Positions 19,251-21,344 of a stretch of DNA of 64,000 nucleotides are shown here, piece by piece. Position 1 is the stretch's first letter, and each line of letters opens with the position of its first letter. The stretch lies in assembly GCA_039196715.1 (NCBI GenBank), contig JBCCUP010000014.1, forward strand, positions 1 to 64,000, written 5' to 3'. The DNA is from Pseudomonadota bacterium (GTDB lineage Bacteria > Pseudomonadota > Gammaproteobacteria > CALCKW01). Made by a program: the position numbers and the translations under genes. The notes beneath the pieces were generated by a model. It did no database searches. It worked only from the letters and a program-made list of their open reading frames with translations, and was not told the origin of the DNA.

Positions 19251-20087
19251 TCAGCGCCCGCCGCGTTCGAGGGGTTGCGTGCACCGGGCGACCCGTTGCC
19301 GTTGCATGCGCGCCACGACCAGGAACGCCACGATGATCGACAACGAAAATACCGTCGTGACAGTGCCAAGTGCGTAGAGCACCGGGGTTGTCACGTTGGT
19401 GGTCATGCCGAAGATCTCCAACGGCAAGGTGTTGTAGGAACCCGAGGTCAACAAGGTCCGTGCGAACTCGTCGTAGGACAGGGTGAAACCGAACAGCGCC
19501 ACGCCGATCAGACTCGGCGCAATCAACGGCAGCACAACATGGCGAAGCGTTTGCCACCAGGTGGCGCCAAGGTCGCGCGCGGCCTCTTCGTAGGCGCCGT
19601 CGAAGCGATTGAAAACCGCAAACATGATCAGCAGGCCGAACGGCAGTGTCCAGGTGAGCTGAGACCCGAAGCCGCTGGTGCTCCAGTGCACTTCCCAGTC
19701 GAGCACGTTGAAGACGAGGCCGACACCGAGCGAGACCAGAATCGACGGAATCACCAGACTGGCGATGACGAGGTAGAAAAGTACTGTCGCGCCGCGAAAC
19801 CGCTGCCGGAACGCGAGCCCGCCCATGACGGACACGACCACCGTGGTCACCATGACCATCAGGCCAAGCGCCAACGAGCGACGGAAGGCGCCCCAAAAAT
19901 CCCCGACCGCCTGCTCCTCGAACAGGTCGAAGAACCAGTGCAGCGACGCCCCGTTCATTGGAAAGGTCAGGCCACCGCGCGGCCCCTGAAAGGACAGAAT
20001 GCCGATGGTGATAACCGGCCCGTAGAGGAACAGCACGAAGCCACAGAAGAAAAAGGCAAGCGGGAAGAACGAGCGTGAGCGGCGCAT
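19251..20087 (-). CDS. ABC transporter permease, PotC-type
   Basis: A 278-residue inner-membrane permease with six predicted helices and the EAA loop (YEEAARDLGATWWQTLRHVVLP) that contacts the ATPase. It is similar to PotC of spermidine/putrescine importers. The ATG immediately follows the end of the MITE-like element, which provides a GGAG five bases upstream. An alternative in-frame ATG lying inside the element would add five residues (MDGAL). It is third of four transport genes and translationally close to the racemase gene. Confidence 0.9.
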   Translation of the reverse strand: MRRSRSFFPLAFFFCGFVLFLYGPVITIGILSFQGPRGGLTFPMNGASLHWFFDLFEEQAVGDFWGAFRRSLALGLMVMVTTVVVSVMGGLAFRQRFRGATVLFYLVIASLVIPSILVSLGVGLVFNVLDWEVHWSTSGFGSQLTWTLPFGLLIMFAVFNRFDGAYEEAARDLGATWWQTLRHVVLPLIAPSLIGVALFGFTLSYDEFARTLLTSGSYNTLPLEIFGMTTNVTTPVLYALGTVTTVFSLSIIVAFLVVARMQRQRVARCTQPLERGGR

Positions 20088-20089
20088 TA

Positions 20090-20373
20090 GTGCTCCATCC
20101 ATCTATAACCTGCGAGTTCAGTTGGCGTGTCAGCGTTCACAGCAAGGCGCGCCTCTTGCCCATAGCCACCCGCCACCCTATGGGCAAGAGGCGCAACGCT
20201 GTCGGTGGGCGCCCGGCTAGGGGCGCTGACACGCTAACCCTACGGGCGTCCCTGTGGTGTCCCGCCGCGTCGTTGCAGCGCTCGACAATGGCTCGGCCAT
20301 TGCCTTCGCGCTGCGCCTTGCGGCGACACACTATAGGGGCGCTGAATCCGTAGTTTATAGATGGATGGAGCAC
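20090..20373. repeat. MITE-like non-autonomous element with TA target duplication
   Basis: A 284-base element lies between the two permease genes. Its ends form an inverted repeat: counting the flanking TA, the first 21 bases of each end are identical, starting TAGTGCTCCATCCATCTATA. A further 13 bases match imperfectly (30 of 34 overall). A TA dinucleotide flanks each side (20088-20089 and 20374-20375), as expected for TA-targeting elements such as the IS630/Tc1-mariner group. There is no credible transposase inside. The interior holds two nested perfect inverted repeats of 11 and 17 bases. It looks like a small non-autonomous transposable element mobilised in trans. Confidence 0.85.
20125..20234. 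repeat. Nested hairpins inside the MITE-like element
   Basis: An outer 11-base inverted repeat (GCGTGTCAGCG at 20125-20135 and CGCTGACACGC at 20224-20234) encloses an inner perfect 17-base repeat. The inner arms are GCGCCTCTTGCCCATAG at 20149-20165 and its complement at 20178-20194, with a 12-base loop. The transcript through the permease operon would fold strongly here. No U-tract follows, so simple intrinsic termination is not obvious. Confidence 0.8.
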
Positions 20374-21230
20374 TAGAGTTCCTTGCGGATGTCGACGTAG
20401 CGCAGCATGACCGACACGATCAGCAACACGGTGGCGAGCAGAATGACCGCGTTTGCTGCGGCAGCCGGGTACTGGAGCAAGGCGATCTCGTTCGAGATGA
20501 CACGCCCGACAGAGGCGCTCTGCCCGCCCGACATGAAACGCACGGTGATGAAGTCGCCCATCACCAGGGTCACGATGAAGATCGATCCGATCATCAATCC
20601 GGGCTTGGTCAGCGGCAGGATCACGTGCACCAGCGTTTGCCACCCACTGGCACCGGCGTCACGGGCCGCTTCGATCAGTGAGTGGTCGATGCGCATCATG
20701 GTGTTGAAGACCGGCACCACCATGAACAGCGTGTAGAGGTGCACAAAGGCGAGCACCACCGCAAAGTCGGAGAACAGCAACCACTCCAGCGGTTCATCGA
20801 TCACCCCGACGTCGATCAGCACCGAGTTGGCGATGCCGTTTCGGCCGAGGAAAGGAATCCAGGAGATCATGCGGATGATATTCGACGTCCAGAACGGGAT
20901 CGTGCACAGCAGGAACAGCGCAATCTGCCAGGTCTGACTGCGCACGTGAAACGCGAGGAAGTAAGCGACCGTGAAACCGATCGCGGTGCAGAACACCCAG
21001 GTGATCACGGTGTATTGCAGCGTTCGCAGGTAGGTCGCCCAAGTGACCTTCGAAGAGAAGATGTACGCGTAGTTGTCAACGATGAAGGCCGGAAAGAAAT
21101 GCCATTCGTTGTAGTCCCAGAAACTCACGACAACGATCAGACAGACCGGCACCACCAGAAACAGGGTGAGCACCGCGACCAGCGGGAGCACCAGGAGCCC
21201 GCTCAGGCGGCTAGCGGCGGAAGCAGACAT
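20373..21230 (-). CDS. ABC transporter permease, PotB-type
   Basis: A 285-residue inner-membrane permease with six hydrophobic helices and an EAA loop (IEAARDAGASGWQTLVHVILP), like PotB. It pairs with the downstream PotC-type permease to form the channel of a spermidine/putrescine-class importer. The stop codon TAG is built from the TA target dinucleotide plus the first base of the MITE-like element, so the present stop was created by the insertion. The start ATG before SASAASRL was preferred over an upstream frame extension. Confidence 0.9.
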   Translation of the reverse strand: MSASAASRLSGLLVLPLVAVLTLFLVVPVCLIVVVSFWDYNEWHFFPAFIVDNYAYIFSSKVTWATYLRTLQYTVITWVFCTAIGFTVAYFLAFHVRSQTWQIALFLLCTIPFWTSNIIRMISWIPFLGRNGIANSVLIDVGVIDEPLEWLLFSDFAVVLAFVHLYTLFMVVPVFNTMMRIDHSLIEAARDAGASGWQTLVHVILPLTKPGLMIGSIFIVTLVMGDFITVRFMSGGQSASVGRVISNEIALLQYPAAAANAVILLATVLLIVSVMLRYVDIRKEL

Positions 21231-21265
21231 GCAATGGGGACGCCGGTGCGATAGGGAGTGGGATG

Positions 21266-21322
21266 AAAAAAAGGGCACGGCCCTCCCCGCACAAGGAGGG
21301 AGACGCCACGGGAGGGCCGTGC
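21266..21322 (-). terminator. Intrinsic terminator/attenuator after the binding-protein gene
   Basis: On the minus strand a perfect 13-base stem (arms GCACGGCCCTCCC and GGGAGGGCCGTGC, 22-base loop) is followed by seven consecutive T's, a classic intrinsic terminator. It lies just downstream of the solute-binding protein gene and before the permease genes. Partial read-through here would give more binding protein than permease, as is common in ABC importer operons. Confidence 0.85.
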
Positions 21323-21344
21323 ACAAACAGCGTCAATCAGTGCG

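Follow-up and report, generated by a model that had tools for sequence, protein, structure and literature searches.

The window (the whole 64-kb stretch of DNA analysed) contains an ABC operon with two BPD_transp_1 permease genes, an SBP_bac_8 binding protein gene, and an ATPase gene. The junction between the two permease genes is occupied by a palindromic element (Table 1). The first-pass annotation had described this as a 284-base element with near-identical inverted ends and TA duplications, and its coordinates and sequence are exact: the element is 284 bp long between two copies of TA. Counting TA, the inverted repeat is 34 nt long with 30 of 34 positions identical, and the outer 21 nt are perfect. 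The termini read GTGCTCCATCC...GGATGGAGCAC. The 20-nt outer motif occurs twice in the 64 kb, once at each end of the element, against an expectation of zero. Only mechanical ORFs are found in the 284 bp, which are thus non-coding. The RNA is predicted to fold at -175.9 kcal/mol (z = -11.7). As a MITE should be, the element is short, non-coding, and bounded by inverted terminal repeats.

Table 1. Features at the permease junction (positions in the window)
Feature	Positions	Strand	Remarks
Upstream ABC permease (BPD_transp_1)	20373..21326	-	TAG stop at element border; true start may be further downstream
Downstream ABC permease (BPD_transp_1)	19251..20087	-	ATG 20087-20085; alternative in-element ATG at 20102
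MITE, non-autonomous, palindromic	20090..20373	none	Inverted ends; 3 more full copies in the genome (81-84%); fold z = -11.7
TA target copy adjoining the downstream permease ATG	20088..20089		
TA target copy, upstream-permease side	20374..20375		Yields the TAG stop (20375-20373, minus) together with the first base of the element
Terminal inverted repeat, ATG-proximal arm	20088..20121	+	GGAG at 20096-20093 (minus strand)
Terminal inverted repeat, stop-proximal arm	20342..20375	-	
Lobe A, hairpin with CAAGG/AACG internal loop	20259..20329	-	Model R1, 79.5 bits, E 3.4e-17
Lobe B, mirrored hairpin with CAAGG/AACG internal loop	20134..20210	+	Model R1, 54.6 bits, E 1e-10

When the element is removed together with one TA, the minus strand reads CTC-TAATG, as first proposed. 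With the element in place, the upstream permease ends in CTC-TAG, where TAG consists of TA and the first G of the element. The ATG of the downstream permease immediately adjoins the other TA copy (20088-20089), and orthologs of this permease begin at the equivalent codon. GGAG is found within the terminal repeat, 5 nt 5' of this ATG, and the alternative ATG inside the element is in frame and would add MDGAL to the protein. The MITE would have entered the TA of the stop/start overlap and duplicated it. TA being the first two bases of TAA or TAG and the element beginning with G, insertion would have restored a stop in the form of TAG; next to the other TA copy, the downstream ATG would have stayed as it was. 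With a TA-first stop, a G-first element, and a spare TA before the ATG, both genes survive, and both are indeed intact.

The genome that contains the window (4.95 Mb, 169 contigs, 96% complete) has further copies of the element at unrelated loci. Three are full copies (on contigs C22, C74, and C109; 81-84% identity), one is decayed (C43), and one is a palindromic 32-nt remnant (C2). Since such copies exist elsewhere in the genome, the window element is a mobile MITE. Two of the full copies lie a few bases 5' of aspS (G000:C22:17421-17686) and between icd and aceK (C74:1840-2105); in these regions the GGAG end of the element is now near the starts of housekeeping genes. The remnant (G000:C2:119987-120018, L014) is a perfect 32 nt, TAGTGCTCCATCCATCGATAAATGGAGCACTA, located between convergent genes, where it supplies the stop of a sulfatase-like gene. 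It does not supply the stops of both genes: that of the LysR gene lies 4 nt beyond it.

Orthologous operons without the element are common. Two congeners with an upstream permease of 88-91% identity have an element-free junction (AAGGAGCTGTGACCGTG and AAGGAGTTGTGACCGTG). Among 80 orthologous loci, about 65 further junctions are readable and all of them are element-free, with the count leaving aside a minority of loci whose reported match started at another position. Genomes G003 and G002 lack the C109 copy (paaK-tetR), and G003 also lacks the C74 copy (icd-aceK). Empty junctions are therefore seen at three loci, along with a TA/TA duplication at the window copy; in several other copies the flanking TA is altered by one base at one end. 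A conserved, immobile intergenic RNA of the operon could have been suspected from the strong structure within an operon. With congeneric and distant junctions lacking it and copies present at unrelated loci, this explanation is refuted and its probability is practically nil. The mobile-MITE reading proposed at the outset is borne out by these copies, by the empty junctions, and by the intact genes. Both outcomes that the first-pass annotation had named as refuting were looked for, and neither was obtained.

The orthologous junctions are tight, mostly 0-5 nt, and have AAGGAG within the end of the upstream gene, which suggests that translational coupling at this junction is plausibly ancestral. 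An empty TAATG site had been anticipated in orthologs. The empty junctions are there; the exact TAATG overlap is absent from the closest relatives, in which the junction is TGA-CC-GTG, and one distant ortholog (L133) shows TAATGG.

A search with the window element also finds, in other families, relatives that have different ends. What they share is a hairpin whose CAAGG/AACG internal loop is nearly invariant, seen in 14 aligned lobes from the window's genome, four other genomes of the same class, an Azotobacter plasmid, and a Comamonas plasmid. Two-sided changes occur in 17 of 21 base pairs of the lobe and 90.8% of cells pair, values reached by none of 500 shuffles; this covariation is not proof of an RNA function, since the alignment also served to derive the structure and homogenisation at the DNA level is possible in palindromes. 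The covariance model of the lobe matches 119 of 369 same-class genomes (E <= 1e-4), about one third of the sample. In 864 kb of the window's genome and G018 (a relative from another family), the lobes of the elements reach 54-80 bits and no other sequence exceeds 21, one probable second lobe getting only 17.

Members of this superfamily are about 268 bp long (262-288 bp when delimited). The mean identity of terminal repeats between types is 37%, and the internal spacing is nearly constant. Of 24 ends, 22 have CAAGG at a distance of 52-62 nt (shuffle mean 0.2, maximum 3) and 20 have AACG at 99-109 nt (shuffle mean 0.7, maximum 4); finding members with the lobe model biases these counts toward the motif, not toward its distance from TA or the mirror copy. 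The window element has two mirrored lobes, with CAAGG 56 nt from both ends and AACG 108 and 102 nt from them, one lobe being longer; the general spacing is about 56 and 102 nt. It belongs to this class-wide two-lobed superfamily of elements with mirrored hairpins and differing terminal repeats. Two-lobed elements of about 268 bp with the same lobe spacing are also seen at L265-L291 in same-class genomes (e.g., L267, L270, L284, L288, and L290), with many unrelated TA-flanked terminal repeats such as TAGTACTCTTTCAAGG, TAGTATCGTGACCC, TAGTGTACTGCGTC, TAGGGAGTCTCTGC, and TATTAACCCGGCAA; these are possibly one superfamily with exchanged ends. A strict end pattern was too narrow for use across the 369 genomes. 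Another hairpin of this type, with a single lobe and its own inverted flanks, is found 3' of ruvA on a Comamonas plasmid (L240) and is possibly a one-lobe relative. A match in Methylobacterium (L239) lacks inverted ends and appears to be a chance hit. Neither the element nor the superfamily has a credible Rfam match; the SRP and TwoAYGGAY matches are flanking sequence or partial overlaps. Searches of the open-access literature with terminal and lobe sequences found no paper on the superfamily, although a name may exist in ISfinder or in subscription papers, which are outside that scope.

At four of the six sites in the window's genome (the window copy, C109, C43, and C2), the TAG stop of a gene is formed by the border of the element. 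G018 has about 20 related sites, and at 7 of 20 (35%) the border coincides with the end of a called gene. These shares are approximate, since genes were called with a simple codon-usage caller. From all non-coding TA, a share of 8-9% is expected, and four or more of six sites would have P = 0.0006. A dedicated mechanism by which the element seeks stop codons or gene ends could be proposed from these numbers. The target is narrower than TA, however: it is CTAA at the window copy and mostly CTAG in G018 and other superfamily members. Stops make up 30% of non-coding CTAG in both genomes (19/63 in 400 kb of G018 and 13/44 in 464 kb of the window's genome). Because the flanks in G018 are mostly CTAG, its 35% is what the target predicts. 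The choice of CTAG or YTAR, together with the loss of insertions into coding sequence, explains G018 fully and the window's genome nearly (P = 0.02 against YTAR and 0.07 against CTAG). Moreover, TA followed by the element's G always reads TAG, so that insertion at a stop codon is silent for the upstream protein. Landing on stop codons requires no special targeting. A dedicated mechanism becomes unneeded once non-coding CTAG is taken as the null, and we regard it as quite improbable. A 4-bp YTAR duplication is likewise disfavoured by the flanks of the copies on C14 (the window copy), C2, and C43.

Several sites in G018 retain only one end of the element (L168, L169, L172, L181, L183, and L186), and several of these ends are directly at the TAG of a gene. 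Stop-proximal ends may have been retained because their deletion would remove the stop. At L182 (around 2089, also in G018), GA stands in place of the flanking TA, and the stop of the called gene now lies about 19 nt inside the element, which may lengthen the C-terminus of the protein slightly.

The related full-length TA-targeting transposon with the same terminal repeat, which the first-pass annotation had suggested looking for, did not turn up: searches of the window's genome, plasmids, and viral contigs yielded no autonomous element with these ends and no partner for this terminal repeat, although one may exist beyond these sequences. Two viral-contig matches to the end motif have it once each with no inverted partner in the stretch examined and look like chance. 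Neither a DDE_Tnp_1 gene nor a DDE_3 gene is found in the window's 96%-complete genome, its three congeners, or G018. Other terminal-repeat types of the superfamily do have partners. The Azotobacter member ends in CTAG-GGTCTGTTGACG, and ISPa67, an IS5-family element (DUF4096 and DDE_Tnp_1), has these at both ends. A second type, TAGGGAATCTCTGCACGAAT, lies next to IS5-family transposase genes on two plasmids: a single end is visible on Pseudomonas pADP-1, and both, in diverged form, on an Acidovorax plasmid. Between them, ISPa67 and the pADP-1 IS5 element match two other two-lobed members in termini and CTAG/YTA flanks, but they are autonomous, with a transposase gene, and their ends are unlike the GTGCTCCATCC of the window element. 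Since sister terminal-repeat types match IS5-family ends, we infer that an IS5-family DDE transposase acting in trans is the most likely source of mobility for the window element.

An origin from IS630/Tc1-mariner-type transposons, which also duplicate TA, would make the element comparable to RUP of Streptococcus pneumoniae, which is small, TA-targeting, moved in trans, and attributed to IS630-Spn1 (PMC2229807). It would agree with the clean TA duplication, with the G/C as part of the element, at the copies on C14, C2, and C43. Against it, the one full IS630-type gene of genome G024 is without matching ends, the DDE_3 search came out empty as stated above, and it is IS5-family elements that match two sister terminal-repeat types. 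This origin is rather unlikely, and RUP also differs in length (107 bp; PMC2229807).

IS5-type mobilisation in trans has a parallel in MITEPsy1 of Pseudomonas syringae, an IS5-derived, non-coding element with inverted ends and a CTAG or YTAA target (PMC3189936). It differs in being 100 nt long with 18-nt ends of another sequence and a reported 4-bp duplication, and the available part of the source describes no two-lobe core (PMC3189936). MITEs, TA-flanked palindromes, and IS5-derived MITEs are already known (PMC3189936, PMC2229807, PMC10969869). Entry of a MITE into an operon also has a precedent, the Chunjie MITE of Geobacter uraniireducens, which by its title (cited in PMC10969869) is inserted in an operon and leaves the operon structure undisturbed; Chunjie is 178-235 bp long and from another lineage.

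In the predicted mRNA, the two terminal repeats pair as a helix of about -40 kcal/mol, in which GGAG is wholly buried. With the ends paired, the UAG stop and GGAG-AUG would occupy the two strands at the base of a single helix. When nucleotides under a ribosome stopped at UAG are masked, GGAG is only partly freed, its four bases having unpaired probabilities of about 0.25, 0.03, 0.35, and 0.006. A ribosome terminating on the upstream permease would partly free the next start, and our preferred inference is a weakened, termination-dependent, hairpin-gated reinitiation at the downstream permease. Loss of coupling, RNase III cleavage, or early transcription termination would be alternatives on the same footing. 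The element had been thought to replace a coupled junction with its own stop and ribosome-binding site. GGAG is present but buried in the predicted helix, and is at most a putative working site in place of the coupled junction. The stop is not the element's own: a TA target and a G-first terminus re-form TAG automatically from the old stop, presumably TAA.

We know of no CAAGG/AACG two-lobe core in ERIC/RU-1 or Correia/NEMIS, and these have other sequences and lengths. What they share with the window element is that they are TA-flanked intergenic palindromes with strong transcript folding, inserted beside or in genes (PMC2229807, PMC2759123). Another possibility is that the element now serves to regulate permease stoichiometry (as an attenuator, RNase III target, or translational switch). 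The very stable intercistronic hairpin and the GGAG buried in the end helix speak for it, and transcripts with ERIC and NEMIS (PMC2229807) are precedents. Yet the site is occupied in this species only among the genomes read, with no conservation, and copies elsewhere resemble ordinary insertions. Such recruitment is unlikely.

The explanation as a whole, which we hold with considerable confidence, is that a member of the ~268-bp superfamily (262-288 bp), whose inverted ends target TA/CTAG and whose two mirrored lobes keep a fixed distance from those ends, would have inserted at CTC-TAATG, mobilised in trans by an IS5-family DDE transposase of which none is found in the window's genome, and left a gated form of coupling.

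This junction illustrates cleanly, in a natural setting, that a TA-targeting, G-first element can enter an operon at a stop codon with zero coding cost, and element-free relatives are available for comparison with the occupied junction. More important, it exposes a two-hairpin superfamily in about one third of the sampled genomes of the same class. Tentatively, and with odds against it, the lobes could be a portable structured module under their own selection, paired with many unrelated IS5-type ends and riding changing transposases, with the paired ends gating reinitiation at the next gene in operons. A conserved factor, of the host or of transposition, would recognise such a module in its folded DNA or RNA form. 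The superfamily keeps its internal structure and spacing while the terminal repeats change, whereas the opposite is expected of a random internal-deletion derivative of an IS. What recognises the lobes therefore becomes directly testable.
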